Below are positions 5,997 to 32,360 of a stretch of 34,957 nt of DNA, in pieces. Source of the stretch: Coriobacteriales bacterium (lineage in GTDB: Bacteria; Actinomycetota; Coriobacteriia; Coriobacteriales; UMGS124); the NCBI GenBank assembly GCA_017515595.1, contig JAFWFL010000111.1:1-34957 (forward strand), written 5' to 3'. The notes under the pieces were generated by a model. That model saw only the letters and a program-made list of their open reading frames with translations, was not told the origin of the DNA and made no database searches. Position 1 is the stretch's first letter. Each line of letters begins with the position of its first letter. Position numbers and translations under genes: made by a program.

Positions 5997-7724
5997 ATGT
6001 CAATTCTTTCCCGTCGTGATTTGGTTAAGGCAGGCGTCACAGTTTCTGCTCTTGTCACTACTAGCGTCGTTACCGGCAGCGCACTTGCAAATGAAGCGGC
6101 CACATTTGCACCTGGTACTTATACAGTGACCGTCCCTTCAATTAAAGGTGATATGACAGTTGCTACCAGCTTTAACGCAGATGTTATTACTGATGTCCAT
6201 GTTATTTCATGTGTGGATAGTAATGTTATTAAAGATGTTGCTATTCAGTCGGTATGCCCACGCATTGTTGAGCAGCAGAATATCGAGGTTGATGCCGTTG
6301 CCGGCGCAACCATGACTTCCCTTGCCATTAAGAATGCCGTTGCCCAGGCAATTAAGCTTGCTGGTGGCGATCCTGTAGCGTTCGAGAAAGGCTCAGACGC
6401 TCTTGCCGAGAAGCCCCAGGGCGAAGATGAAACCTATGACATTGTTGTTATTGGTGCCGGCGCTGCGGGTTTAAGCGCCGCTCTTACCGCCGCACGTGAA
6501 GAATCCGCTCCTTCAGTCCTGTTGCTTGAGAAGCAGGCATTTATTGGCGGTTGTTATCGTGTCTGCGGCGGTGGTATGTGGACCTTTAATGCGCCAATTA
6601 ACGAGTGGGTTGGGCAAGATTGTTCAAAAGAAGATCTTATCGACTTCATGACACGCCGTTCCGGTGAGTATCCAATTAATGAAGAGCTTTGGAGCAATAT
6701 CTTTGATATTTCCGGAGAGATATTTATGAATCTCTGGAAGGAAGGTGTTGGCTTTAACCCCTTGACCTGGTCACTTGGCAACGCCCAATCACAAATTCCT
6801 TGCTTCTGGACCTTGCGTCATTCAGATATTCCATGGGAAGACGTTGTGTCTGGTTGGTCAGACCAAGAAAAGCTTATTGTTGACCGTGCCGGTGTTGAGA
6901 CTCGCGTAAACAGCCGCGTTATCGAGCTTGTCACAGATGGCTCAAAGGTCGAGGGTGTTGTTGTCGAAGACCTCGAGAAGGTCTACACTGTTCATGCCAA
7001 AAAAGTCATTATTGCAACCGGTGGTTTTACTCAAAATATGGAATATCGCGATCAATATGCTCCTGAGTTTGAGAATGCCTTTGCTTTTACTTCTGCAGGC
7101 GACACCGGTGATGGTATTACCCTTACCCGCGATCTCGATGTACCGATTGTTGGTAATGGCATGATGGGCCTCATGGGTCTCAATCCTGCTTTAGGTTATT
7201 ATGGCGAATTTGGTAGCTTGGTTTGGCTCCCACAAATGTGCGTAAATGCAGAAGGAGAGCCTATAGATCTCTCAATTCACTATGGCGATACCCTTAAGCT
7301 TATTTGTGATCAGACCGACGGGCATATTTTTGGCATTTTTGATGCAACCAATGCAGTAGCTGAACGCCTTGAGAAGGCCTTAGCCCTTGGCTATGTTTCT
7401 AAGTATGATTCACTCGAGGAGCTTGCTGCCGGTGAGGGTATTGCTGCCGATGCATTTGTTGCTTCTACAGCGAACCTTGCAGAAGGCCCTTACTACTGCA
7501 TCATTATACGCCCCTTGTTCATTGGGTCAATCCCCGGTCTTCAGGTTGATGAGAAGTGCCATGTTATTAATGCCTCCGGTGAGATTGTCGAAAACCTTTA
7601 TGCTGCTGGTATGTGCATGTTTGGCAATGTCTTTAACATTGCTTACCCAAGCTCCGGTACCGGTGTTGGAACCAGCCATTACACAGGTGCAATAGCCGCC
7701 CGTGACGCAGTAGCTGCACTATAA
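5997..7724 (+). CDS. Tat-exported flavoprotein with N-terminal FMN-binding domain (575 aa)
   Basis: The twin-arginine motif SRRDLVKAG (residues 5-13) leads a signal peptide. Residues about 38-125 form an FMN-binding domain with DAVAGATMTS at 99-108. Family knowledge says the threonine of the D-x-x-x-G-A-T motif (Thr105 here) is covalently loaded with FMN by ApbE. Residues 145-575 are the FAD/fumarate-reductase-like domain, with GAGAAG at 153-158 and the acidic LLLEKQ following. This FMN plus FAD layout is that of urocanate-reductase-type enzymes, where FMN passes electrons to FAD. The C-terminal signature is YPSSGTGVGTSHYTG, without GANRLGGN and its arginine, so the acceptor is unknown. No apbE gene is in the window. 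AGGGG precedes the ATG. Codon use is more relaxed than in the flavoproteins at 389 and 17946. Confidence 0.85.
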   Translation: MSILSRRDLVKAGVTVSALVTTSVVTGSALANEAATFAPGTYTVTVPSIKGDMTVATSFNADVITDVHVISCVDSNVIKDVAIQSVCPRIVEQQNIEVDAVAGATMTSLAIKNAVAQAIKLAGGDPVAFEKGSDALAEKPQGEDETYDIVVIGAGAAGLSAALTAAREESAPSVLLLEKQAFIGGCYRVCGGGMWTFNAPINEWVGQDCSKEDLIDFMTRRSGEYPINEELWSNIFDISGEIFMNLWKEGVGFNPLTWSLGNAQSQIPCFWTLRHSDIPWEDVVSGWSDQEKLIVDRAGVETRVNSRVIELVTDGSKVEGVVVEDLEKVYTVHAKKVIIATGGFTQNMEYRDQYAPEFENAFAFTSAGDTGDGITLTRDLDVPIVGNGMMGLMGLNPALGYYGEFGSLVWLPQMCVNAEGEPIDLSIHYGDTLKLICDQTDGHIFGIFDATNAVAERLEKALALGYVSKYDSLEELAAGEGIAADAFVASTANLAEGPYYCIIIRPLFIGSIPGLQVDEKCHVINASGEIVENLYAAGMCMFGNVFNIAYPSSGTGVGTSHYTGAIAARDAVAAL

Positions 7725-8700: not shown

Positions 8701-10197
8701 TTACAGATTGTGGGGGTTCGTTTTTTGAGCAAGCTCAATGAGTTCTTGCTGATTATGAATTTCGAGCTTGGCATACACATGTTTGATATGTGTTTGGACA
8801 GTCCCTTTGGCAATGTATAACTTTGTCGAAATAGCGTTAGCATTGTAGCCTTTTGCCAGCAAATTAAGTACATCTGCCTCGCGTGGTGTAAGTCCTGCTT
8901 GCTGAGAAAGAACACGGCATGCAACAGTAAGATCATCTTCCTTGGGTTTTGAGGGTGTCTCGTCTGCAAATTGTTTGCGCTGAAGAGAATTAACGCTGCT
9001 GTTCTCGGGCAAAATCGAAATCCCAACTGCAACAAGCACCAGTATCATGACAAGAGACATGCTTTGAAGTGTAATAACACCCGCCTCAAGCTGGTAGTGG
9101 CAGAGGCCACCCAGTATATAGCCTAATGCTCTGCCGGCAAGCGTTGCTGCTATTGCGCCCGAGAAAACCCTGAGGTTACATATTTGCGGAGTTTCCTGTG
9201 CAACTCGTGCCATAACAATCCAAGAAAGCAAATCAAAGAGTCCGTATCCTGCCGTTGCAAACATGGAAGCGAAAACTCTATGATGGTCGCCAACGAGCGA
9301 AAAGAGTACATAACCTGTAATTATGAGGAGCACAACACTCCGGTAAACAGGAAGCGGGTTTAAGTCTCCTTTGATAAGATAAAAACCCAGAAAACATACA
9401 GCAACAAACAGATCTACAAGTATGGAATACCAGCGACCTAACCAATCAGGAAAACCATCGGTTCCCAACAGGTGTCGTAAAAAGGTCGTTGCAAATACAA
9501 AAGCAAACATTCCAATAGCAAGTTTTACCAAAGAAATTGTTGACTGCCTGCGATCTGAGACGGTTTGAGAAGAAATGTCCTTTGCGCAGTCAGACGGCGG
9601 AATGTCTATAGACACGCCGCATGCGGCAAGATTTATAGTTATGGCTGAACATGCAGGCAATATAAGCAAAAGAATCAGCATGGTGATTTGGGAACTTACC
9701 ATAAGAAATGCATCGAATCCAACGGCACAGCAAAACGATAAGCCAGTATACAGGCCCATAAACCGAGGATCGAGCTTTCCGTATATTTGACCCCATGACA
9801 TGCGGATAAGAGCAAGCGTACTTCCTCCCAAAAGGAGTGCGATAAACCAAAGGATACTGAGGCCACTCATCAAAGAGCAGGCAAGACATATTGCGGCAAG
9901 TGTTCCGACAATTGCTACACAATGATAAGTATGGCGGTTAAACCATGGTTCGATTTTTGGCGCAAGGAACGCAAACGTTAAAGCAACAATAGTACCGCAC
10001 GTAAAAAATATTGCATGAACCGGAGAAACTCGCAAATTCGTAATGAGTTCCAAATTTGCAATGCCTTGTGCAGCAAGCATGAGAAAACCATACGTCCATA
10101 CACGCGATAAGCTAAAACCCAGCAAAGCGAGCTTTTCTTTACCGGAAAAGGCTTCCTCCAGCACGAGCATAAATTTGCTTGTGTTAAGAATGCTCAC
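8701..10197 (-). CDS. LuxR-type regulator with multi-pass membrane N-terminal domain (498 aa)
   Basis: The first ~400 residues are a series of about ten to twelve hydrophobic helices resembling an MFS-like membrane domain. The last ~65 residues are a LuxR/FixJ helix-turn-helix (LTPREADVLNLLAKGYNANA, then GTVQTHIKHVYAKLEIH). Known relatives are abundant in Eggerthellaceae, where they sit beside reductase genes. The membrane part is presumed to sense a ligand or the redox state and the C-terminus to bind DNA in the cytoplasm. I chose GTG 10197 because AAAGGAAAGG stands 9 bp before it; an in-frame TTG 10227 has no such site. It is not beside a flavoprotein here, unlike the two other copies at 16194 and 21621. 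Its target is unclear. Confidence 0.85.
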   Translation of the reverse strand: MSILNTSKFMLVLEEAFSGKEKLALLGFSLSRVWTYGFLMLAAQGIANLELITNLRVSPVHAIFFTCGTIVALTFAFLAPKIEPWFNRHTYHCVAIVGTLAAICLACSLMSGLSILWFIALLLGGSTLALIRMSWGQIYGKLDPRFMGLYTGLSFCCAVGFDAFLMVSSQITMLILLLILPACSAITINLAACGVSIDIPPSDCAKDISSQTVSDRRQSTISLVKLAIGMFAFVFATTFLRHLLGTDGFPDWLGRWYSILVDLFVAVCFLGFYLIKGDLNPLPVYRSVVLLIITGYVLFSLVGDHHRVFASMFATAGYGLFDLLSWIVMARVAQETPQICNLRVFSGAIAATLAGRALGYILGGLCHYQLEAGVITLQSMSLVMILVLVAVGISILPENSSVNSLQRKQFADETPSKPKEDDLTVACRVLSQQAGLTPREADVLNLLAKGYNANAISTKLYIAKGTVQTHIKHVYAKLEIHNQQELIELAQKTNPHNL

Positions 10198-10258
10198 CGG
10201 TCTCAACCTTTCCTTTGCAGCACGCAACGCTTTATCATATTCTCAGCAGCGTGTATTA

Positions 10259-12667: not shown

Positions 12668-12703
12668 ATGGGTTTTATGAACCGGAATTCCGAGAGCACA
12701 TGA
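12668..12703 (+). other. Possible 11-codon leader ORF overlapping the next start
   Basis: ATG 12668 opens an 11-residue frame (MGFMNRNSEST) that stops at 12701-12703, overlapping the ATG at 12700 in the ATGA arrangement. AAGGGATCAG lies before its start, whereas ATG 12700 itself has no good ribosome site. It may therefore couple translation of the downstream gene. It has no family and may simply be chance. Confidence 0.35.
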
Positions 12704-13719
12704 AAAAGCCAACACAGATTGACGCGTTTTGCGCTTTAACTACCATAGCAGCTGAGGACGGACGCCGTGAAGCGCTGTTTGGAGACTGTCTCGATTTGGC
12801 GCCATACATCTATGAACGCACCCTTATTGGCAGTGGATACCCCAATGCATACCTGGAATTCCCGCTTCTGGGCAAACCGTGTTTAGACATACTTTCAGTA
12901 CACGGATACGTAGAACCCGGTGCGACGTTTGCTCCCGGAGCAGGCTTTGGCCGCCAGGCTATGTATGATTGGTTCACTGGCGTGTGCAAACCGGACGGCC
13001 TGGTAAGCTGTGGGCTTGAGCTGGATCTTTCGACCGGAGAAGCAGAGACCGCCAGCGTATACCTGCAGCAGCGCAAACACACAGAGCTGGTAGCTCCCTT
13101 CCTGGAAAGCATTGGAGAAAGCACGCGGACTCAGAGCTACCTTGATGCTCTTATGCGTATGCCAAATGGCTGGCCCCCCTCCTACGTAGGGCTGTTCCCC
13201 GGGCGGCCCGGAACACCAATGCGCATTGGTGGCTACATGAGTGCAGGCGAGCTGGCGCGATGCGCAGAAAACCCGGAGTACCTGGGAGAGCAATTCAGGC
13301 AAATTGGCTTTTTGGCCTTTGATGCACCTATGCTCAAACGCTGCTCGCAGTTCATGAGCCTTGCTCCGTCGGTCGACTTTCAGTTCGATATCATGCCCAA
13401 CGGACAATTAAGCGACACATTTGGCCTATCACTCTCGTTTAACGAGACAAAGCCGCGCAAAGCACGGGAGTGCATGGAGTCAGGTTACGGAGCCGCTCTT
13501 ATGCAGACGCTGCAAACCTGGGGTTTGGCTGATGACCGCTGGAAGCTCATTGCCGGAGCAGCTTTCGCACGCCACATAGGCTATGAGCGCGACGACGGAA
13601 CCGAGGGCCGTTTTGCACTTTGCATACTGTTCAATTATGCAAAAGTAAAATTCAAGGATTGTGAACCTCAGCCGGCTAAGTTTTATTTAACCTGCACTTC
13701 GGGGGACTTGGAGACCTAG
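12700..13719 (+). CDS. Unrecognised protein, paralogue 1 of a tandem pair (339 aa)
   Basis: I do not recognise this family. It has no signal peptide and no membrane segment. It aligns end to end with the next gene. Shared blocks are E-x2-LFGDC (residues ~24-31), E-x-PL-x-G-x-P, F-x-PGAG, LP-x-GW-x3-Y-x-G-x2-PGRPG-x-P-x-R (~155-178), FQFDIM and T-F-GLSLSF. Several regularly spaced strand-like stretches alternate with helices, which could fit an antiparallel alpha-beta barrel; this is only a reading of the pattern. The single shared cysteine is in FGDC. Its TAG stop directly abuts the ATG of paralogue 2, and a radical SAM/SPASM enzyme follows, so the three are surely one operon. A role as partner, carrier or modifying enzyme in peptide maturation is inference. 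Confidence 0.75.
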   Translation: MKKPTQIDAFCALTTIAAEDGRREALFGDCLDLAPYIYERTLIGSGYPNAYLEFPLLGKPCLDILSVHGYVEPGATFAPGAGFGRQAMYDWFTGVCKPDGLVSCGLELDLSTGEAETASVYLQQRKHTELVAPFLESIGESTRTQSYLDALMRMPNGWPPSYVGLFPGRPGTPMRIGGYMSAGELARCAENPEYLGEQFRQIGFLAFDAPMLKRCSQFMSLAPSVDFQFDIMPNGQLSDTFGLSLSFNETKPRKARECMESGYGAALMQTLQTWGLADDRWKLIAGAAFARHIGYERDDGTEGRFALCILFNYAKVKFKDCEPQPAKFYLTCTSGDLET

Positions 13720-14724
13720 ATGGTAATAGACCGGCTTTCTGTATACGACACAATTTATGCGCTCGCCTCAGACAAAGGTTGCGAAAAGGTACTGTTTGGT
13801 GACTGTGCGCCACTCGCGCACAAAGCGTTTCAACAAAGCCTCATTGGCGATAAGTTTCCGCTGTTGTGGTTCGAGGTCCCGCTCGCGGGCAATCCCCGCT
13901 TTGACCTCCATGTAGCGCTCTCACGCGAGTCCTTGCATGCCGGAGTACAGTTTCTTCCCGGTGCAGGTAATAGCTATGACGAGCTCTTTCGCTGGTATTC
14001 AGAGAACGAGACGGGCGGTGGCGGACTTACGTTTGCCTACGATGTCTCAGAAAGACGTATCGACAATCCGGCTGTTCATGTAAACGTGAATAATGCTCCG
14101 CTCACCAACATAAGCCGCTTCTTTGACCTTGTGGCCGGCGACGGCGCATACGTACGCTATTCAGATTTTGAGAACCGCCTTCCGCAAGGCTGGCGCATAT
14201 GGTATACAGGCGTACACCCCGGCAGGCCCGGGTCACCTGTGCGCGTCGACTGTTTTGTAAGTCCGGCACTCAAGGCTGCTTATGCAGGTGACATTACGCA
14301 GCTTGAGCATGATCTGCACGCCTGCGGGTTCACAGCCACAAGCCCGGCGCTACGCGATCTTGTGATGCCTATTCTGGAGTCTCCGTTCAGTTTGGAGCTG
14401 CAGTTTGATGTTATGTGCGATAATACGCTCGGGACTACGCTGGGTGTCTCGGCAGGATTCCCATTTGTCAACGAGGCTGGCACACGCAAGCTCTTTAATG
14501 ATGGTGGTACAATAGCGCACCTCATGAACAGGATTGAGGACATGGGTCTTGCAGACAAGCGCTGGCGTCACATTCCTGACGCAACGTTCGCCACGCTTAT
14601 CAGGGTAGACGGCTCAGCGCTTGCGCTTTATTGCGTACCCACATTCTTGAAGATGCGCATGCGTGACGGCAAGCCGCTTGATGCCAAAACTTACCTGCAA
14701 GCCGGTGCATCTGTATTGAGATAG
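13720..14724 (+). CDS. Unrecognised protein, paralogue 2 of a tandem pair (334 aa)
   Basis: This gene starts at the base after the stop of paralogue 1, so translation is probably coupled. The protein repeats the same blocks: KVLFGDCAPLA (~21-31), WFEVPLAGNPRFDL, QFLPGAGNSYDELFRWY, GGGLTFAYDVSE, LPQGWRIWYTGVHPGRPGSP (~151-170), LELQFDVM and LGTTLGVSAGF. Overall similarity is moderate, with clear divergence outside the blocks, so the two probably form a heteromer or act on different partners. No catalytic motif of a known family is evident. It is soluble, with no signal peptide. The radical SAM gene begins 46 bp downstream with its own GGGAGG ribosome site. Base composition looks slightly richer in GC than the flavoprotein genes. 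Confidence 0.75.
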   Translation: MVIDRLSVYDTIYALASDKGCEKVLFGDCAPLAHKAFQQSLIGDKFPLLWFEVPLAGNPRFDLHVALSRESLHAGVQFLPGAGNSYDELFRWYSENETGGGGLTFAYDVSERRIDNPAVHVNVNNAPLTNISRFFDLVAGDGAYVRYSDFENRLPQGWRIWYTGVHPGRPGSPVRVDCFVSPALKAAYAGDITQLEHDLHACGFTATSPALRDLVMPILESPFSLELQFDVMCDNTLGTTLGVSAGFPFVNEAGTRKLFNDGGTIAHLMNRIEDMGLADKRWRHIPDATFATLIRVDGSALALYCVPTFLKMRMRDGKPLDAKTYLQAGASVLR

Positions 14725-14770
14725 CCAACCAATAAACTTATCAACCTTACCAATATGACGGGAGGATGTC

Positions 14771-16141
14771 ATGGAGTCTCAGGAGCAAACACAGGAGAAC
14801 ACATCGCGGACGGCGGGAGAAGCAGGTTGGCACGTATCGCGTTATAACCTGATCGCGCAAGTCCCGGACTCAAAAATGGTGGCTATTGCCAATCTTTACA
14901 ATGGTAACTGCGCTGCGTATACACCGCTCGAGATGTACCTGCTTTCTGTCTTGGAAGAGCTTGACGAGAATCATCCCATCATTGAGCGTTTTGCCAAGCG
15001 CGGCATCATTTGCAATCTTGACGAGCGTGCAGCGCTTGAGACTATGGGACGTGCTGCATGCGCGGCCAGCCCCAGTATTGGACTCACCATCTGCCCCACA
15101 ATGGGGTGCAACTTTGACTGTCCGTATTGCTTTGAAGACCACGGACGCGGAAAGATGTCACAAGAGGTCCAGGATGATGTTATAGCTCTTGCGGAGCGCA
15201 TGCTGAATGCTTCCAACACAAAAGGCATGCATGTTGCCTGGTTTGGCGGCGAGCCGCTTTTAGCCCCCGATATTATAGAGTCACTGTCAACCCGCCTGAT
15301 ACAGCTCGCAGATGAGCACAACGCCGCATACCATGCAAGCATTATTACAAACGGATATCTGCTCTCGCAAAAAATTGCTGACATGCTGGAAGCAGCAAAA
15401 GTCGAGTCAGCTCAAGTCACCATTGACGGATTAGGCGCAACCCACAACGCCACACGCCATCTGTGTAACGGTGGCCCCACGTTTGACCGCATTGTAAGTA
15501 ATCTGAGAAATCTGAAGCTTCCTTTTAAAGTAAACATACGTCACAACGTACATGAGGGCAACCGTGCAGAGACAGATGATCTACAAGCGTTTGTCAAGAA
15601 ACTCGCAGAGGAATCAGGCAATGAGATTACATATTATCCGGCACCAGTCAGTGGCAGCGAAGTTGCAGATGAACGAGGCAAGCAGGTAGGTTTGCTTTGT
15701 GGAAGCGACGCGAGCGAGATTGGTATACGTCAGGAGGCGGGACGCTTTAGTGTGGGTCGCGGTCACTATTGTGGCTCGCATAGCTTATGGTCCGTTGGTA
15801 TTGATGACCGCGGTAACCTGCAAAAGTGTTGGGAAGCTGTCGATAAACCATGGATCTCTTTTGGCACTGCCCACGACTGGGATCCCGCAAACCCACTGGC
15901 TACAGCAAGCAAACCCAACAACCTTACCATGTATTTAAACACAGCCAGTCCCGTGCCTGACGAAGAATGCCGGGAGTGCGTATGGCTTCCCATGTGTGTA
16001 GGCGGATGCCCTCATAAGCGCTTATTTGACAAACGGCAGTGCGTCCCGTTTAAGGATAACCCGGAACAATACGTCCTGGCGCTCTATGCCCGCATTGGCG
16101 AAAAAAAGACAGAGGACAACAAACCGTCACCAACGGAGTAG
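14771..16141 (+). CDS. Radical SAM/SPASM peptide-maturase-like enzyme (456 aa)
   Basis: The radical SAM cluster motif is C113-x3-C117-x2-C120 (ICPTMGCNFDCPYCFEDHGR), followed by WFGGEPLL, the SAM-binding GGE. Residues 400-413 are C-x2-C-x5-C-x3-C (CRECVWLPMCVGGC), with a further Cys at 424, the SPASM arrangement that binds auxiliary 4Fe-4S clusters. An earlier pair of cysteines lies at YCG and QKCWE. Residues ~20-85 resemble the N-terminal leader-recognition-like region (PqqD/RRE type) of RiPP enzymes. Relatives make thioether, C-C or epimerised links in ribosomal peptides. No precursor peptide is recognisable next to it; the two upstream paralogues are the only obvious partners. GGAGG precedes the ATG. 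Confidence 0.85.
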   Translation: MESQEQTQENTSRTAGEAGWHVSRYNLIAQVPDSKMVAIANLYNGNCAAYTPLEMYLLSVLEELDENHPIIERFAKRGIICNLDERAALETMGRAACAASPSIGLTICPTMGCNFDCPYCFEDHGRGKMSQEVQDDVIALAERMLNASNTKGMHVAWFGGEPLLAPDIIESLSTRLIQLADEHNAAYHASIITNGYLLSQKIADMLEAAKVESAQVTIDGLGATHNATRHLCNGGPTFDRIVSNLRNLKLPFKVNIRHNVHEGNRAETDDLQAFVKKLAEESGNEITYYPAPVSGSEVADERGKQVGLLCGSDASEIGIRQEAGRFSVGRGHYCGSHSLWSVGIDDRGNLQKCWEAVDKPWISFGTAHDWDPANPLATASKPNNLTMYLNTASPVPDEECRECVWLPMCVGGCPHKRLFDKRQCVPFKDNPEQYVLALYARIGEKKTEDNKPSPTE

Positions 16142-16193: not shown

Positions 16194-17630
16194 TTACAGA
16201 GCGAAGGGATCAGGACCTGAGTCTGCGCCGGTATTCTCGGTAATACCGAGCATCTCAAACATTTCTTCGCGCGAATGGACATCAAGCTTTTGGTAAATAT
16301 GCTTGACATGGGTTTTTATGGTACTGGCGGCTACATAGAGTTCGCGTTCTATTTGGGCAGGCTTTTTGCCAAGTGCCAAGAGGAGCAAAATCTCAGACTC
16401 ACGTGCGGTTAACCCGTATTCATCAGAAATTTCGTTCACCTTTGCGCCAATGCGGGCACGTGAATCTTCAGGCTCTTTGCCAACAATATCTTTAAGCACA
16501 ATACCCCATGGCGTAGTCAGCTGCTTCTCAGAAAGGAAGAATTTAGTTGCGATCACAACCATGGCGGCCACAATAATACTGATGAGAACGTTGTCCAAAA
16601 CGGGAGGCCAATCCGGCAATGTAATAAGTTTGTGCATTCCGGCTCCGGCTTCGACCGAGACCAGCCGCACCGCACGCTCGATTCCAAACAGCCACACCGC
16701 ATTAAATCCATATTGATACGTGAGGTTGCTTAGTACCACCATAATGGCTATAAGCACAAACGTATAACTTGCAAGAGCACAGAAGCTTGAGATATTATCG
16801 CCAAACGGCATAAAACTCCCAAATGGAATGAGCGAAATAATTGCAAGAATGCAGGCAGCGCGGTAGGTCAAAGCCAGCTGCAGGTTGTCGCGCTTGTAGC
16901 ATATAGCTGCATATACAACCGCCGCAGCAAATACACACCCCAGCCCTGAATGGATGCCAAGCACACTGCCAAACACGCTTTCGCACATACCGTAAGCAAA
17001 TGAATACAGAGCAACAATCGCGATGGGCTTCCAGGGAACCGGTTGCTGTAACAGCCCTAACCTTGGACGCTCCTCTGCCGGCAGGAGTTTGTATGCACGC
17101 TCAAGGCAATAAAGCGAGAGCGGAGGTATGAGGCAGGTGCAAACCCAAAGCCAGGGCACCGCAAGTCCTTTGAACAGCCATAATATGAGCGCACCCACTA
17201 TGAGTCCGCCAGAAAAATACAAACCCACGCGCAACGGGTTAAGACAGCCAAACAGCTCGGACCACAAAAGAATAATAAATGAGATGCCTACAGCTCCGCT
17301 CAACGCGGCAATAAGGCCAACATATGCCGCACATTCTGGAATGTAGTAACTTAAAAAATTCAGACAGGTCGAAGCTACCATGGTGGCTGCCGTAACAACA
17401 TAAACCCACTTTTTATTATAAAGCGGAGAAACTCGCTTTGCGTTGAGCGCGAGTAGTATGAGTATGACTGCAGCCATAAGATTGAACGCAGTAAAGCCAA
17501 ACGGAGTGTCATGTTGTGTAGGAAATGTGATCATACTATTGGAGTAGACCGTCTCGGTCCAGACTCTGAATATTCCCATTCCGGTAAAAGCAAGCGGCAT
17601 CGCAATAAAGCGATTTTCTCGGCCTTCCAT
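16194..17630 (-). CDS. LuxR-type regulator with multi-pass membrane N-terminal domain (478 aa)
   Basis: About ten to twelve hydrophobic helices fill residues ~10-390. The C-terminal LuxR helix-turn-helix reads YGLTARESEILLLLALGKKP, then STIKTHVKHIYQKLDVHSRE. I chose ATG 17630, which has AGAGGAG upstream; ATG 17669 is possible but has no ribosome site. It is divergent from the Tat flavoprotein at 17946 across a ~315-bp region carrying G/C-tract direct repeats, so that flavoprotein is its likely target. It also converges on the radical SAM gene with only a 52-bp gap. The membrane domain likely perceives the reductase substrate or its redox effect, an inference from how similar pairs are arranged. 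Confidence 0.85.
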   Translation of the reverse strand: MEGRENRFIAMPLAFTGMGIFRVWTETVYSNSMITFPTQHDTPFGFTAFNLMAAVILILLALNAKRVSPLYNKKWVYVVTAATMVASTCLNFLSYYIPECAAYVGLIAALSGAVGISFIILLWSELFGCLNPLRVGLYFSGGLIVGALILWLFKGLAVPWLWVCTCLIPPLSLYCLERAYKLLPAEERPRLGLLQQPVPWKPIAIVALYSFAYGMCESVFGSVLGIHSGLGCVFAAAVVYAAICYKRDNLQLALTYRAACILAIISLIPFGSFMPFGDNISSFCALASYTFVLIAIMVVLSNLTYQYGFNAVWLFGIERAVRLVSVEAGAGMHKLITLPDWPPVLDNVLISIIVAAMVVIATKFFLSEKQLTTPWGIVLKDIVGKEPEDSRARIGAKVNEISDEYGLTARESEILLLLALGKKPAQIERELYVAASTIKTHVKHIYQKLDVHSREEMFEMLGITENTGADSGPDPFAL

Positions 17631-17718
17631 GTGAATGCAATCTCCTCTGTCCGGACAGCTGTGTGACATGGATTTATTATAGTAGTTCGAAAACCCTTAC
17701 TTGTCAAAAAATGTCATC

Positions 17719-17945: not shown

Positions 17946-19547
17946 ATGGATATGACTCGTCGTTACTTTTTGACCGCTTCTGCAACCGCTGCCGCAGCCG
18001 CTGTTGCAAGCAACGCAGCAATGGCACTTGCTGATGAGGCTCAAGAGGCCAAGCAGCCCCGCTGGAGCTGGGAAGTTAAGCCCGAGCCCATTTCTGATGA
18101 CCAGATTGCCGAGACACTCGACGCCGACATCTGCGTAATTGGCTTTGGTTCATCAGGTACCACCTGCGCTATGGCTGCCGCACAGAGCGGTGCCAAGGTT
18201 GTTGTTCTCCAAAAGATGGAGCGCGTTGTAACAAACGGTTGGTGCGTTGCTGCTTACAACTCAAAGATGTTCCTCGAGGCCGGCAAGACCTATGACCTTC
18301 CTAAGATTTACGCTGATTTCGCTGATCTTTCTAACGGCCGCGACAACCCCAAGGTTGTACAGACCTTCCTTAAGCGCAGCGGCGAGGTTGTTGACTACGT
18401 TATTCGTCAGACCCCTGAGTTCACCCCCATTATGCTTGGCACCGGCCACACCTACGGTTGGTACATCAACAACGACATGGCTACCCGTTACAACCAGTTC
18501 CAGAAGCTTCTCAACGCTATCGCTAACAAGGCTATCGAGGCCGGCGCAGAGATTCGTTACAGCACCCCGGCAGTTCAGCTTGTTCAGGACGAGACCGGCC
18601 GCGTAATTGGTGCAATTGGTGAGGGTCCCGACGGTTATGTTAAGGTTAACGCTGCTAAGGGTGTTATCATCTGCACCGGCGACACCTCAGACGACCCCGA
18701 GATGATTGAGGCTTTCTGCCCCATTCTTGAAGGCGTTCGCAGCGTTCATATGGAGCCCTGCAACACCGGTGACGGCCACAAGATGGCTCTCTGGGCAGGC
18801 GCAAGCATGGACCCGGCACCTCACACCATGATGATGCACTTTGATCCCACCTGGATGATCGAGGGCAATGCTCCTTACTCCGGTATTCCGTGGCTCCGTG
18901 TTAACCTCAACGGCGAGCGCTTTGGTAATGAGAACCTTGGCTATCAGAGCCATGTAACCCAGGTTCGTTTCCAGCCCGAGATGACCGCTTTCCAGATCAT
19001 TGACTCCAACTGGGACAAGCATGCTCCTAACGGTGAGTATCCGCATCCCAACAGCCACAGCCGTTCAACCGCTGACCCGGTAAATGACTGGGCAGCCGCT
19101 CTCGAGCGTGGCGCCATTATCCAGGCCGACACCCTTGAGGAGCTTGCAGACCTTTGCGGCATCAACAAGGAGAACTTCCTCGCCACAGTCGAGCGTTACA
19201 ACGAGCTCGTAGACCTGGGCGTTGACGAGGACTTTGGTATCCCCAGCGAGTTCATTGTTCTCAATGGCATCAAGGAGCCCCCGTTCTTCGCAATCAAGCG
19301 TATGCCTGCTAAGCTTGCTACCTGCGGCGGCCTTACTATCAATGAGAAACTCGAAGTTCTCAATGCTGAGGGCGAGCCTCTTGGTGGCCTCTATGCAGCC
19401 GGCAACGCCTCCGGTTCTTACTACGGCGACGACTACCCGCTCTTCATCACCGGTGGTTCTCATGGCCGCGCCTGGACCTTTGGTGTTCTCTCCGCCCGCT
19501 CCGCTCTCGGTCTTCTCGACGAGCCCGTTGACGAGCTTGGTATGTAA
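17946..19547 (+). CDS. Tat-exported FAD-dependent flavoprotein (533 aa)
   Basis: The signal is TRRYFLTAS (residues 4-12) with an alanine-rich hydrophobic core ending near ALADEA. The FAD motif GFGSSG is at 66-71. The substrate/FAD domain of the fumarate-reductase-like family follows, with LGGLYAAGNASG near the C-terminus and DDYPLFITGGSHGRAWTFG in place of GANRLGGN. There is no haem motif and no FMN-binding domain. Electrons must come from an unlinked quinol or cytochrome partner, none of which is visible here. AGGAGA lies before ATG 17946. Codon use is strongly biased (CTC, AAG, GAG, CGT), suggesting high expression. The next gene at 19964 is a paralogue with the same C-terminal layout but relaxed codon use. 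A strong terminator follows. Confidence 0.87.
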   Translation: MDMTRRYFLTASATAAAAAVASNAAMALADEAQEAKQPRWSWEVKPEPISDDQIAETLDADICVIGFGSSGTTCAMAAAQSGAKVVVLQKMERVVTNGWCVAAYNSKMFLEAGKTYDLPKIYADFADLSNGRDNPKVVQTFLKRSGEVVDYVIRQTPEFTPIMLGTGHTYGWYINNDMATRYNQFQKLLNAIANKAIEAGAEIRYSTPAVQLVQDETGRVIGAIGEGPDGYVKVNAAKGVIICTGDTSDDPEMIEAFCPILEGVRSVHMEPCNTGDGHKMALWAGASMDPAPHTMMMHFDPTWMIEGNAPYSGIPWLRVNLNGERFGNENLGYQSHVTQVRFQPEMTAFQIIDSNWDKHAPNGEYPHPNSHSRSTADPVNDWAAALERGAIIQADTLEELADLCGINKENFLATVERYNELVDLGVDEDFGIPSEFIVLNGIKEPPFFAIKRMPAKLATCGGLTINEKLEVLNAEGEPLGGLYAAGNASGSYYGDDYPLFITGGSHGRAWTFGVLSARSALGLLDEPVDELGM

Positions 19548-19844: not shown

Positions 19845-19963
19845 ATTATGCCTCTTAAGACTAATTTGCAGATGTATAAATAATCTCAAAAAGGTATGGT
19901 TTGAGTTGTTGGACGCGGAGATGCGTATCCGCAAAAATTCAAATCGCTTTAGGAGGAATATCT

Positions 19964-21559
19964 ATGATCGAAGGAATTAGTCGTCGCAGTTTTTTGGGCG
20001 CAACAGCAGGTAGTATTGCCAGTGCAGCTGCAGTCTCAGCAGGCATCGCTCACGCGCAGGACACAGAAGCCATTGTTACTGTAGATGATTATAGCTTCTC
20101 CCTCAATACAATACCAAGCTTTGTTAATCCACCCGCACCTGTGGCAGATGCAGATCTCATCGCAACTTATGATTATGATATTGTAATTGTTGGTGCCGGT
20201 ACAGCCGGTCTCGGAGCAGCAACGGCAGCTCATCAGTTTGGTGCCAAAACAGCTGTTGTCCAAAAACAATCCATGGGTGTGGCACAAGGTAATGGCGGTA
20301 GCGGTGTTGATCTCGAAGCAAGTGATCCGGCTGCTATAGAAATGCTTATTAATATCCATATTGCTGCAAACGCGTATCGTCCTCTTAGAAAACTTGTCCG
20401 GACTTGGGTTGACTATTCTGCCAAAGCATGGAATGCTTTGGCTGATTTTACAAAAGATCTTGCTTTCCCCATTGAAATCTCCAGACCAGTTGAGCGAGCC
20501 TATGCAGAAGATCGTATAGCACATACATTCCACGCTGCACCAAAGGGATCGAACTTTGCCGGTGCAACTCCGGGATACTATGATGCGTTTGCCGAAGCAG
20601 GAATTGATGTTTATTATGAGACTCCCGCTGAGCAATTAGTCCAAAATGAGGCAGGCGCCGTTACCGGTGTAATTTGTAAAACCGCAGATGGTTATGTTAA
20701 GTTCAATGCAGCTAAAGGTGTTATTCTAACTGCCGGTGACTATCAAAATGATCAAGAAATGGTTGATTACTTCTTGCCGGATATGTCAAATTGTGTACGC
20801 AAGCAATCCGGTAAAACCGGCGATGGTATCAAAATGGGCCTCTGGGCTGGCGGCGTTATTGAGCCTGTTGGTCATTCAAAAATGAGCCATGATTTTGGCA
20901 GTGGCCCTCTCGCTAGCGAGCCCACTCTTATTGTTAATTCAAACGGTGATCGTTTTTGCTGTGAAGGTATCCACTTGTCACTTATGCAAAACCTTTCTCG
21001 TTTCGAGAATCCCTGCGGTACATGGTTCCAAATATTCGACAGTAATTATCAAGAATATCTGGAAAGCTGGGGAAGCTCGGCTCCGAGCCCTGAAGAATTA
21101 GCTCCGTATAATCCCGAATCAGACGAATATCGTGGTCGCGGCCATGTTTATAGTGCTGATACACTTGAAGAACTTGCCGCAAAGATGGGGATTAGTGATG
21201 TCGAGAACTTTGTTGCACAAGTAGCACGCTATAACGAAATCGTCGCTCAGGGTGTTGATATTGATTTTGGTAAAGATCCAGCCTACCTTACCCCCGTTGA
21301 TACCGCACCGTTCTATGGAATTGTACGTAATACCGGCATTACCGCAATTCTCTCCGGCTTGCTAACTGATGAGCAACAGCGTGTTGTTAATGCAGATGGC
21401 ATGCCTATCCCCGGTCTTTACGCAGCAGGAAACAATGCAGGCGGATTCTTTGGAGCTATCGATTATCCCTTTGTTGGAGAATATATTGATGCTATTTCTA
21501 TTGGACGTGCCGTTACCGGTGGATATGCTGCTGTGGCATATGCAACCGGCAATGAATAA
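19964..21559 (+). CDS. Tat-exported FAD-dependent flavoprotein, second of a tandem (531 aa)
   Basis: The start is ATG 19964, with AGGAGG 8 bp before it; a longer frame upstream has no ribosome site. SRRSFLGATAG (residues 6-16) is a Tat signal. GAGTAG at 77-82 binds the FAD ADP moiety, and the family C-terminus reads PGLYAAGNNAGGFFGAIDYPF. The region replacing GANRLGGN is EYIDAISIGRAVTGG. It resembles its upstream neighbour at 17946 most closely, including a VDEDFG/VDIDFGKDP-type block and a PFYGI/PFFAI strand. The two probably arose by duplication and then diverged in substrate. There is no FMN domain and no haem site. It converges on the LuxR membrane gene at 21621, which may regulate it. 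Codon use is less biased and AT-richer than in its neighbour. Confidence 0.85.
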   Translation: MIEGISRRSFLGATAGSIASAAAVSAGIAHAQDTEAIVTVDDYSFSLNTIPSFVNPPAPVADADLIATYDYDIVIVGAGTAGLGAATAAHQFGAKTAVVQKQSMGVAQGNGGSGVDLEASDPAAIEMLINIHIAANAYRPLRKLVRTWVDYSAKAWNALADFTKDLAFPIEISRPVERAYAEDRIAHTFHAAPKGSNFAGATPGYYDAFAEAGIDVYYETPAEQLVQNEAGAVTGVICKTADGYVKFNAAKGVILTAGDYQNDQEMVDYFLPDMSNCVRKQSGKTGDGIKMGLWAGGVIEPVGHSKMSHDFGSGPLASEPTLIVNSNGDRFCCEGIHLSLMQNLSRFENPCGTWFQIFDSNYQEYLESWGSSAPSPEELAPYNPESDEYRGRGHVYSADTLEELAAKMGISDVENFVAQVARYNEIVAQGVDIDFGKDPAYLTPVDTAPFYGIVRNTGITAILSGLLTDEQQRVVNADGMPIPGLYAAGNNAGGFFGAIDYPFVGEYIDAISIGRAVTGGYAAVAYATGNE

Positions 21560-21604: not shown

Positions 21605-21641
21605 GGGAACGCCCCGCTTTTTAAACAAGCGGGGCGTTCCC
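21605..21641. terminator. Terminator overlapping the 3' end of the facing LuxR gene
   Basis: GGGAACGCCCCGCTT (21605-21619) pairs perfectly with AAGCGGGGCGTTCCC (21627-21641), followed by ATTTT. The loop holds the stop codon of the minus-strand LuxR gene, and the right arm encodes its last residues. It can stop transcription from both directions. Confidence 0.88.
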
Positions 21642-23024
21642 ATTTTCTATGAGAGTCATAAGCTCTTTACGAGTATGTACACCCAGCTTTTGATATATAT
21701 GTTGTATATGAGCTTTGACAGTACCTTCAGCGATAAACAATTCTTTGGAAATAACAAGAGCAGAATTGCCTTGCGCTAACAGATATAGGATCTCTTCTTC
21801 TCGCTGTGTCAGATGAAACGTGGTGCCAAAACCTGCAAGCGGGTCTGCTATCTCCTGCTCACCGTTTTGAGTATTCAATACATAATTGATGTTCCAGTCA
21901 GAAAACACGGTTTTCTCGGATAAAACAATAAATGTCAGAATGGCAATGAGTCCCAAAACCGCAGCAACAAGGAGCGCCTCTGTATTAGTACCAAGAGGTA
22001 TCAAATAGGCAGATGCCGCTGTTCCCAAGAGAGTGCCGGCATATCTAAAAAATCGCGCAAAACCAAATAACCATAATGCGCTGATGCGAAGCCTGTGAGA
22101 TATTTGTCCCAAAACAAGAATGCCAAATACGGTAGCGCTAAAACTGCCAATTCCTACAAAATCAGCAATAATATTCTGAGGCAGCATATTACAAATAAGC
22201 AGCATTAATACCACTATAAGCATAGTAAACACTAATAAATGATTCACGCTTGAAGTAGTAAACTTACCTGGCCGCAGAGCGATTCCAACAATAATAATAA
22301 CTAACGGAATTGCCCATAACAAACGCTCGGGGTACAAAGAGCGGTACGTAATAATAGACGATTCAATAAAAGAAAATACAATGGCATATAATGCAACACA
22401 AAGAGTCGCTTTCAAGGGAATTTTTTTAGTAATACGATCTGCCAGAACCAAATCAAGCCGGGAGATACTGCTCGAACACTTGCGCAAACAATAAAACGCT
22501 GCAATAACAAACCCTGCAAGCATAGTATAAAGATACGGAGTCATATATCCATATAGCAGCCAAGCAAACGTATCTCCCAATACACGCGCAATAGAATAAT
22601 AAATAACAGCTCTCAGGGGGTTAAGCGAAGCATAAAACTCAAGCCACATGAGAACGGCTGCCGCAAAACCAAGACCTCCAAAAACTGCGTATAGATAAAA
22701 GCAATATACAAAGCCAAATTCAACTGCAAAAGATGCTGCTATTGTGCCCAGGATGAGCATTGTACCAATAAGCAGTCTTCCTTTTGAGTTAACAAAAAAC
22801 GGAGAAATGTATCGGGAAACTATTACCATAGCGGCAGAAGCAATAAGACAACTGATGTCAAAAACCGTTGTGTAGGAGTAACTCCCTGTCACAATCCATG
22901 CAGACGAGACTGTCGACCCAATTGTTAAAACCCAAGCCCGTAAGAACGCAAACCCAAAACAGAAAAATGGGACATCAGCAAAGATATTCTTAATGCGATG
23001 TAAAACTGCGAATACTCCCTGCAT
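21621..23024 (-). CDS. LuxR-type regulator with multi-pass membrane N-terminal domain (467 aa)
   Basis: A series of about ten to twelve hydrophobic helices (residues ~15-380) is followed by a LuxR helix-turn-helix: FHLTQREEEILYLLAQGNSA, then GTVKAHIQHIYQKLGVHTRK. I chose ATG 23024, which has AAAGGGAG 6 bp before it; the upstream ATG 23051 lacks one. It is the third such protein in the window and shares the block LNPLRA/LNPLRV with the 16194 protein, pointing to one expanded family. It faces the flavoprotein at 19964 tail to tail, so regulation of that gene would require action at a distance, or it may serve both tandem flavoproteins. It probably senses a membrane-soluble or periplasmic-side signal; this is inferred. 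Confidence 0.85.
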   Translation of the reverse strand: MQGVFAVLHRIKNIFADVPFFCFGFAFLRAWVLTIGSTVSSAWIVTGSYSYTTVFDISCLIASAAMVIVSRYISPFFVNSKGRLLIGTMLILGTIAASFAVEFGFVYCFYLYAVFGGLGFAAAVLMWLEFYASLNPLRAVIYYSIARVLGDTFAWLLYGYMTPYLYTMLAGFVIAAFYCLRKCSSSISRLDLVLADRITKKIPLKATLCVALYAIVFSFIESSIITYRSLYPERLLWAIPLVIIIVGIALRPGKFTTSSVNHLLVFTMLIVVLMLLICNMLPQNIIADFVGIGSFSATVFGILVLGQISHRLRISALWLFGFARFFRYAGTLLGTAASAYLIPLGTNTEALLVAAVLGLIAILTFIVLSEKTVFSDWNINYVLNTQNGEQEIADPLAGFGTTFHLTQREEEILYLLAQGNSALVISKELFIAEGTVKAHIQHIYQKLGVHTRKELMTLIENGNAPLV

Positions 23025-23246
23025 AACGCTCCCTTTACTGCATCGTACCATTCGTTATAGTATCATATTTACTGAAGACGGTTATGTAAGGAATTATCAT
23101 GCTTTAATAATTTTGACAGGTTATCGACCATTTTCTTCACACATATGTCAAAGTATCATGAGTAGTTAATGCCCGAGGTACCATCAATCTACAAATTGGC
23201 ACCAAAAGTAAACAAACCAGGTACTACTACTCATCTTACTACTTCT

Positions 23247-30797: not shown

Positions 30798-32360
30798 ATG
30801 GAACTGTCTCGTAGAAGTTTTGTTGCAAGTGCAGCAGCTGCTACCGGAGCCCTTGCGGCCACCTCTGCTGTAACCGCATTTGCTGAGGAAGCTGCTCCTG
30901 CTGTTGAGCATGCCCCGGTATCAGAAGAAGATGCTGACATTGTTGTTGTTGGTTCCGGCACTGCAGGTATTTGTGCAGCAACAAGGGCTGCCGAGCTTGG
31001 CGCAAAGGTTATTTTGCTCGAGAAGCGCGGAATCCTTGGCGGATCCTCCGGTTTTGCAGAGGGCGTTGGCGGCATCAATTCTTATCTCCACAAACAACAG
31101 GGCATAGAAATTGACCTTGCCGAGGTATTCCAGCGTGCGCAAGAGTATCATCACTGGGCAGCAAATTCCGCTGTTCTTAAGAACTTTATTGCAGAATCCG
31201 GCCCCACAATTGACTGGCTGCATGAAAACTGCGGCGTTGATTTTTGCATTACAATCGTTGTTTCTGCAACGTCATACCCCAGCTGGCACTTGGCAAACGA
31301 CATGGACGGTAACCTCAACCGCATCTCTGAGAGCTTAATTGCTCCGCTCGAGCTTAAGCTTGAGGAGCTTGGCGCAGATGTACGCAAGGATTCTCCGGCG
31401 ACCGGCCTTGTAGTAGAAGATGGCGCTGTAAAGGGCGTTTACTGGACAGACGGTTCCAATGAGTATCAAATCAATGCTCCGGCAGTTGTATTAGCCACAG
31501 GCGGCTATTCAAACAACAAAGAGATGCTCGAGGAGTTCACGCATCAGTCATTTGATCGTATGCATAACTGGGGCGTTGAAGGCCGTGACGGTGACGGTAT
31601 TCGCTGGGCACATGAAATTGGCGGCGAGTATCACATTGTTTCTACCATGATGGGCGCCTGCACCGCAGTGCCTGAGCCAACCGTCTTTGAAGAGCCTCTG
31701 AACTGGATGTTCTCCTGGCAGCCCAATATGCGCATTAACCAGGATGGCAAGCGCTTCTTCTGCGAAGCATATGCGGCTGACTTCTGTGTTTCAACCAACG
31801 CTATCATGGCTGAGAGCCAGTGCTTCTCGATCATGGATCAGGGATATGTTGATATGATCGCCAATGAGGCGCTCCCGTTTGGTATGGCAAGTGTTGGCTA
31901 TGTAGCCGGAGTTCCCATGCCGGGCGCTGCTGAGACTGTCGCAGCTGCCGTTGAAGCCGGCCGTCTCCTTAAGGCTGACACCGTAGCAGAGCTTGCCGAG
32001 AAGATGGGTGTTCCTGCCGAGACATTAGTTGCAACCATTGAGAAGTTCAATGCAGACGCAGCTGCAGGTGCAGATGCCGAGTATGGTATGCCGCCCGAGA
32101 TGCTCCGTCCTTATGACCAGCCTCCTTATTACGCAGCTCCTATCCAACCCGGTTGCTTTACCAGCGTTGGTGGTTTGAATGTTGATGTAAACTTCCGTGT
32201 ATTGCGTTCAGACAGCAGCTTCATTGAGGGTCTTTATGCCCTTGGCGGAGACGAAAGTTCTGACACCGGCCGCGACTACGACGTGGGAGTATTTGCCGGT
32301 TCACAGCAGGGTTGGTGTGCAACAGGCGGCCGCCTTGTAGCAGAGCAACTTTTTGCGTAA
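30798..32360 (+). CDS. Tat-exported FAD-dependent flavoprotein (520 aa)
   Basis: The signal SRRSFVASA (residues 4-12) is followed by GSGTAG at 52-57 (FAD). LLEKRGILGGSSGFAEGV follows, and the family substrate domain lies beyond it. The C-terminal block DTGRDYDVGVFAGSQQGWC replaces GANRLGGN, so this belongs to a different subgroup from the other four flavoproteins. There is no FMN domain and no haem motif. GGGGTGATG serves as the ribosome site. It is transcribed from its own promoter, downstream of the molybdoenzyme operon, and is followed by a terminator and then a LysR gene on the same strand, its likely regulator. The substrate is unknown. Confidence 0.87.
   Translation: MELSRRSFVASAAAATGALAATSAVTAFAEEAAPAVEHAPVSEEDADIVVVGSGTAGICAATRAAELGAKVILLEKRGILGGSSGFAEGVGGINSYLHKQQGIEIDLAEVFQRAQEYHHWAANSAVLKNFIAESGPTIDWLHENCGVDFCITIVVSATSYPSWHLANDMDGNLNRISESLIAPLELKLEELGADVRKDSPATGLVVEDGAVKGVYWTDGSNEYQINAPAVVLATGGYSNNKEMLEEFTHQSFDRMHNWGVEGRDGDGIRWAHEIGGEYHIVSTMMGACTAVPEPTVFEEPLNWMFSWQPNMRINQDGKRFFCEAYAADFCVSTNAIMAESQCFSIMDQGYVDMIANEALPFGMASVGYVAGVPMPGAAETVAAAVEAGRLLKADTVAELAEKMGVPAETLVATIEKFNADAAAGADAEYGMPPEMLRPYDQPPYYAAPIQPGCFTSVGGLNVDVNFRVLRSDSSFIEGLYALGGDESSDTGRDYDVGVFAGSQQGWCATGGRLVAEQLFA

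Follow-up and report, generated by a model that had tools for sequence, protein, structure and literature searches.

Predicted paired ABBA-fold prenyltransferases and a radical SAM/SPASM enzyme linked to Nif11-like precursor peptides in Coriobacteriia

Described systems and the three-gene cassette

Prenylated ribosomally synthesized and post-translationally modified peptides (RiPPs), Nif11 leaders, and the prenylation of Nif11-leader peptides by enzymes of the alpha-beta-beta-alpha (ABBA) type are already known. MppC is an ABBA-type enzyme that performs leader-dependent geranylation of tryptophan in a lanthipeptide having a Nif11-like leader (PMC12715784, JACS 2025). Here we describe a cassette of two paralogues, A and B, and a radical S-adenosylmethionine (SAM)/SPASM enzyme in a Coriobacteriales bacterium (GenBank assembly GCA_017515595.1, contig JAFWFL010000111.1, positions 1 to 34,957; this whole stretch is called the window). 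With a probability of roughly 0.7, we propose that these three genes supply tailoring enzymes to a RiPP pathway dispersed over the genome, in which A and B would act as paired prenyltransferases on a core tryptophan and the SPASM enzyme would add a second modification. We infer this chemistry from the fold (itself predicted), the pairing and the genomic association reported below. The chemistry of MppC is a direct precedent for the proposed prenylation step. By its description, MppC is like the system proposed here in being an ABBA-type enzyme that acts on tryptophan behind a Nif11-like leader. It is a single enzyme with a class II lanthionine synthetase partner in a cyanobacterial cluster, whereas here the partner is a radical SAM/SPASM enzyme, the paralogues form paired clades and the genes are dispersed.

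Other described enzymes share fewer features with the cassette. Cyanobactin F-family prenyltransferases of the PagF and DciF type have the ABBA fold, weakly match the B model and use peptide substrates, in their case independently of a leader (PMC12715784); unlike A and B they have no radical SAM partner, and no sequence family match joins the two groups. The trans-isoprenyl diphosphate synthase-like enzymes PalQ and ComQ prenylate tryptophan of ribosomal peptides (PMC10853753, PMC13290415), but belong to the isoprenoid-synthase superfamily with its Asp-rich motifs and different fold. Prochlorosins belong to the Nif11 family of precursors and share a single promiscuous enzyme, ProcM (PMC10783134); that system differs in its lanthionine chemistry and is cyanobacterial. 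The nearest models of the radical SAM enzyme (up to 209 bits) are those of the TIGR04463, Clo7bot, CefB and PapB maturases, most of which act on Cys-rich precursors. The window's enzyme falls far below every curated cut-off, and the peptides of the present system combine a Nif11-like leader with a Trp-Cys core. By fold, A is best matched by bacterial tryptophan prenyltransferases of the dimethylallyltryptophan synthase (DMATS) type (CymD, IptA, PriB and 5-/6-DMATS; PF11991), although A and B have no PF11991 sequence match. To our knowledge, the bacterial DMATS-type members use free tryptophan or indoles and are neither paired nor tied to precursor peptides. In the literature searched (most subscription journals and bioRxiv-only preprints were outside its scope) we found neither a pathway joining a radical SAM/SPASM maturase to an ABBA prenyltransferase, nor the A/B enzyme family, its strict pairing or its dispersed layout.

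The cassette consists of three open reading frames on the + strand, as given by an initial annotation of the window made from the DNA alone:

12700 to 13719, + strand: paralogue A, 339 residues, predicted ABBA-fold prenyltransferase of the clade {A, C60} (AlphaFold2 model, PDB fold matches, tree)
13720 to 14724, + strand: paralogue B, 334 residues, predicted ABBA-fold prenyltransferase of the partner clade {B, C46, C79} (AlphaFold2 model, PDB fold matches, tree)
14771 to 16141, + strand: radical SAM/SPASM enzyme, 456 residues (PF04055, cysteine motifs, nearest NCBIfam model TIGR04463, 33/33 co-occurrence)

The stop codon of A directly abuts the ATG of B and the radical SAM gene begins 46 bp further on, also as annotated. 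A and B are 29% identical across 332 residues (E 4e-39). The window forms contig C11 of a draft genome 3.3 Mb in size and 98% complete. Three further copies of the paralogue family lie on contigs C60, C79 and C46 of this genome. The close radical SAM gene is present only once, as the window's own copy.

Predicted fold and strict pairing of the paralogues

The initial annotation had assigned A and B to no known family, and our searches agreed. Neither protein matched a Pfam or NCBIfam model at E<=1, and hence no curated model of the cyanobactin F-family, and searches of PHROGs and of PDB sequences were empty. PF11991 likewise gave no match at E<=1 to A, B or any of 60 family members, and a search of the window's own genome with this model returned nothing. 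AlphaFold2 models built from the 60 homologues were of high confidence (pLDDT 96 for A and 94 for B), and both contained the barrel of alpha-beta-beta-alpha repeats that characterizes the ABBA prenyltransferase superfamily. All 34 PDB fold matches of the A model at E<=1e-3 were ABBA aromatic prenyltransferases, mostly tryptophan prenyltransferases, with 5- and 6-dimethylallyltryptophan synthases, CymD, IptA, MpnD and PriB at the top. The B model gave 14 matches at the same threshold, again all ABBA prenyltransferases (NphB (Orf2), AmbP3, EpzP, FAMD1, DMATS1, AmbP1 and AnaPT). We predict from these models that A and B represent an ABBA-barrel prenyltransferase family new to Pfam and NCBIfam.

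Fourteen residues were invariant in the 60-member alignment (A numbering: G28, E53, P55, L56, D63, W91, D109, F134, R175, Q228, R280, K315, K327 and Y329). As E53, D63, D109, R175, Q228, R280, K315, K327 and Y329 are retained in both clades, there is no sign in either partner of a degenerate copy. To judge from sequence, these invariant polar residues are such as would be expected of diphosphate-binding enzymes. Among them, E53 is a candidate for the catalytic Glu that ABBA prenyltransferases have inside the barrel, and R175, R280, K315, K327 and Y329 are candidates for its Arg/Lys/Tyr shield, which binds the diphosphate. The motifs LFGDC, PLxGxP, FxPGAG and PGRPGxPxR, which the initial annotation had singled out, do occur in both paralogues, but across the alignment they are only a partial family signature in which the LFGDC cysteine varies.

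A tree of 90 sequences split {B, C46, C79} from {A, C60} with support of 99/99, a few long-branch sequences being of unsure place. Each of the 29 distinct adjacent pairs contained one gene from each clade and no same-clade pair was seen. Independent C60/C46 pairs obeyed the same rule, many of them without a nearby precursor gene. Such strict pairing suggests a two-part function, and A and B may form a heterodimer. About 40 bp upstream of the C46 paralogue, and on the same strand, is a TldE/TldD-like gene pair (L016, G000:C46, 6022-9750; recognised by eye). TldD/E proteins are known from other RiPP pathways as peptide-trimming proteases.

Precursor peptides and genomic association

A scan of the window with a leader profile found no precursor, as the initial annotation had stated, and the idea of a leader-bearing precursor hidden in the window was rejected. 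Short peptides with Nif11-like leaders were found around radical SAM orthologues in relatives, where the initial annotation had advised looking for conserved small open reading frames. The list of such frames was dominated by GC-rich low-complexity shadow frames, and the peptide set taken from it was confirmed by profile. The leader is roughly MxFxDLTPEQxEKAKACKTxEELxALAKEEGxELSDEELxxIAGG followed by a short core; these peptides have the conserved helical leader, GG and variable core of Nif11-like precursors. Scores against the TIGR03798 leader model lay around or below its cut-off: the C54 peptide of the window's genome scored above it, together with neighbours, those of C43 and C101 scored below, one relative's precursor reached 32.2 bits against the 32.3 required and others were weaker. 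With our own leader profile the window's genome gave matches at E<=5e-19. Of 70 distinct cores, 63 had a tryptophan among their first eight residues, mostly at positions 1-3 after GG and usually followed one to five residues later by cysteine; the leaders contained only 4 tryptophans in 3440 residues. The window's genome has five precursors, all on contigs other than that of the window:

Contig C101: one precursor, core SWYSCMNETW, peptide MASFDKLTPEQMEKAKACKNSDELIALAESEGIELTDNQLDAIAGGSWYSCMNETW
Contig C54: one precursor, core KKWYDCDAVKCYHVVLP
Contig C43: three precursors, cores ENWKDKCMLLSCYLFG, EEWYEPCKKYTCYWFY and SWATNCPKEDC...

The radical SAM enzyme matched PF04055 and has the CX3CX2C and SPASM cysteines of a maturase at the positions first annotated (C113/C117/C120 and C400-x2-C-x5-C-x3-C). 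TIGR04463, its nearest NCBIfam model, scored 209 bits against a cut-off of 525, and the equivalog cut-off of no named maturase was reached. The initial annotation had implied a region like a RiPP recognition element (RRE) at the N terminus; in the Pfam scan no PqqD or RRE family matched the enzyme. NHLM ABC1/ABC2 transporter genes adjoin some radical SAM genes, and a comparison of neighbourhoods found no large gene that generally accompanies the orthologues. Other Nif11-type Cys-rich peptides lie close to different radical SAM genes on contigs C49, C4 and C119 of the same genome (G000; loci L127, L128 and L130), and thus several separate radical SAM-RiPP systems seem to be present there.

Among 398 Coriobacteriia genomes, the paralogue family was found in 37 and the leaders in 40, with 35 genomes common to both (Fisher p 2e-42; the p-values here ignore phylogeny). 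The radical SAM enzyme at >=44% identity was present in 33 genomes, all of them among the 37 (p 4e-44), so that, within the genomes searched, this enzyme lineage is confined to those with the paralogue family. Four paralogue genomes lacked a close radical SAM gene and five leader genomes lacked paralogues. The carriers span at least five families. Scoring in this survey took in no more than the top five candidates of each genome, and its copy numbers are therefore minimum values. The initial annotation had allowed that the radical SAM gene might occur without the paralogues in most relatives; at the genome level the paralogues accompany it in 33 of 33 cases. As for the conserved neighbourhood that it had advised searching for, physical linkage was loose: 10 of 32 radical SAM genes with enough flank were near a paralogue, and the exact order A-B-radical SAM was seen only in the window's genome. 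A precursor lay within 2 kb of 37 of 80 paralogue genes and of 12 of the 32 radical SAM genes. A protein of about 400 residues (cluster c4; L072, 8273-9511, with homologues in L074, L078, L079, L100 and L113) that has no NCBIfam match adjoins several A-B-precursor loci and some radical SAM loci.

The window's A and B are orthologous to the pairs of loci L036, L072, L074, L076, L077, L078 and L079 (about 62-65% identity for A, 45-50% for B). All these loci except L077 have a precursor ending in (S/A/T)WYxCMNETW just downstream of B. Searched as a DNA pattern, W-x2-C-(M/L/V)NETW occurred in 10 of the 398 genomes and its reversed control in none. A B orthologue was present in 10 of 10 pattern genomes (in G279 only as a fragment at a contig edge), versus 2 of the 27 other paralogue genomes. 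In G242, which has a B orthologue and no such peptide, that B gene carries a stop codon. To a large extent B and the core match because their genes are neighbours that are inherited together. In the window's genome, however, the CMNETW peptide is on another contig, and A and B are therefore predicted to act in trans on the C101 peptide; the predicted substrate thus ends in GG-SWYSCMNETW.

Among named homologues, the one most similar to A (78%) comes from a goat-ileum Eggerthellaceae metagenome-assembled genome (MAG). The remaining ones are from Coriobacteriia MAGs, several with ruminant-gut names, and from one bin labelled Erysipelotrichaceae. In RUG087, a MAG labelled Erysipelotrichaceae (locus L186), a 12-kb stretch of a contig with 45% G+C has the order precursor, radical SAM gene, A, two precursors and a C79-type partner. 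We found no phage homologue of A and no plasmid homologue of B. A distant family homologue is encoded on plasmid pNP243 of Butyrivibrio fibrisolvens D1 (22.5% in tblastn; the profile matched it over the full length, P 2.5e-26) and retains the residues aligned with E53, D109, R175, Q228, R280, K315 and K327. Its neighbours encode two PqqD proteins, a lasso B2 protein, an asparagine-synthase-related protein, a peptidase, ABC transporters and a 57-residue Cys/Trp peptide. A relative of the family therefore occurs in a ribosomal-peptide cluster of another phylum. That cluster (L279, NZ_CP146964.1, 179097-200101) has lasso-type genes and an S24/S26 peptidase, and is from a named strain that is thus probably cultured.

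Elsewhere in the window, five flavoproteins resemble fumarate-reductase-type reductases (365-2023, 5997-7724, 17946-19547, 19901-21559 and 30798-32360), and three membrane LuxR-type regulators lie between them (8701-10227, 16194-17669 and 21621-23051), all judged from their sequences and from the protein clusters shared between neighbourhoods. Promoter and terminator scans gave results at chance level.

Proposed pathway and competing explanations

In the pathway we favour, A and B would work either as a heterodimer or in turn: on recognition of the Nif11-like leader by the two proteins, an isoprenyl diphosphate would donate its prenyl group to the core tryptophan. The SPASM enzyme would form a radical-derived link, probably a Cys thioether and less likely a Trp cyclophane; the nearest radical SAM models mostly act on Cys-rich peptides. 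Cleavage behind GG would then release the product, and an NHLM-type ABC transporter with a C39 peptidase would export it. The initial annotation had inferred a new maturation system in which the SPASM enzyme modifies a RiPP; the data support this, the interpretation as a whole being borne out in part. Several observations weigh against the proposal. The fold matches have TM-scores of about 0.4-0.56 and rmsd values of 7-10 A, which indicates a common but distant fold, and profile-profile comparison with Streptomyces DMATS gave a local match (probability 16) too weak to place the catalytic residues on the DMATS active site. A precursor within 2 kb is missing for more than half of the paralogue genes. 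In genome G253 there is a precursor with tryptophan (core ADWGCSGFLSSYAY), but neither a paralogue nor a close radical SAM gene was detected, and hence another enzyme may account for part of the role of this tryptophan. The stretches examined in the window's genome showed no NHLM transporter, and in G290, one of the ten pattern genomes, leader and core are in different frames.

Of the roles that the initial annotation had offered for the paralogues (modifying partners, a carrier or the substrate itself), we favour the first and reject the other two, given the predicted enzyme fold and the separate short precursors found near relatives' genes and elsewhere in the genome. A carrier or substrate role would suit the adjacency of A and B to the radical SAM gene in the window and the several paralogue copies per genome set against one or few radical SAM genes. 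It is very improbable, however, in the face of models of such confidence, GG-leader peptides encoded separately, an absence of cysteine from the invariant residues, and four paralogue genomes that have no close radical SAM gene. That the proteins keep the barrel and have lost prenyl transfer, serving the SPASM enzyme as chaperones or recognition subunits that bind leader or core, would accord with the distant fold similarity and the unplaced active-site residues, and strict two-clade pairing would suit a scaffold. We consider this improbable, as the 60 aligned sequences, which represent both clades, agree without exception at nine polar positions (Arg, Lys or Tyr at five of them). The Butyrivibrio homologue retains most of these residues, and its cluster has separate PqqD-type recognition proteins. 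The four genomes just mentioned argue the same way.

Prenylation of a small molecule such as free tryptophan, indole or another aromatic compound, with a coincidental or indirect link to the radical SAM enzyme and peptides, would fit the best fold matches of A (free-Trp and indole prenyltransferases) and the many paralogue genes lacking a nearby precursor. It seems quite improbable given the genome-level co-occurrence with leaders and radical SAM enzyme, the precursors that do adjoin paralogues, the correspondence of B orthologues with the CMNETW core, and the presence of a distant homologue in a RiPP cluster of another kind. A further alternative is that A and B do not share a substrate, A modifying peptides of the DSWWCPTATSCPNYE type and B those of the SWYxCMNETW type, and are merely kept together. 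This would fit L072 and L181, where A is preceded by one precursor and B is followed by another, and G341, in which an A gene has a precursor upstream and a close B orthologue is missing. We nevertheless regard separate substrates as rather unlikely, since all 29 adjacent pairs have one member per clade and the C60/C46 pairs do likewise, many with no precursor nearby.

A broader claim, which we consider somewhat less likely than not, is that Coriobacteriia of gut and rumen have a RiPP class of their own that is new, comprising Nif11-leader peptides with a radical SAM crosslink and a prenylated tryptophan, an obligately paired heteromeric ABBA prenyltransferase, and scattered genes in which one enzyme set would serve many peptides in trans. 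With the present work, a family absent from Pfam and NCBIfam gains a predicted fold, a probable chemistry and a candidate substrate core, SWYSCMNETW. The strict clade pairing raises the question of whether an ABBA barrel can work as a heterodimer. As precursors and enzymes are often unlinked, genome mining based on clusters would miss the pathway, which points to lipidated, radical-modified peptides from mostly uncultured gut Coriobacteriia.

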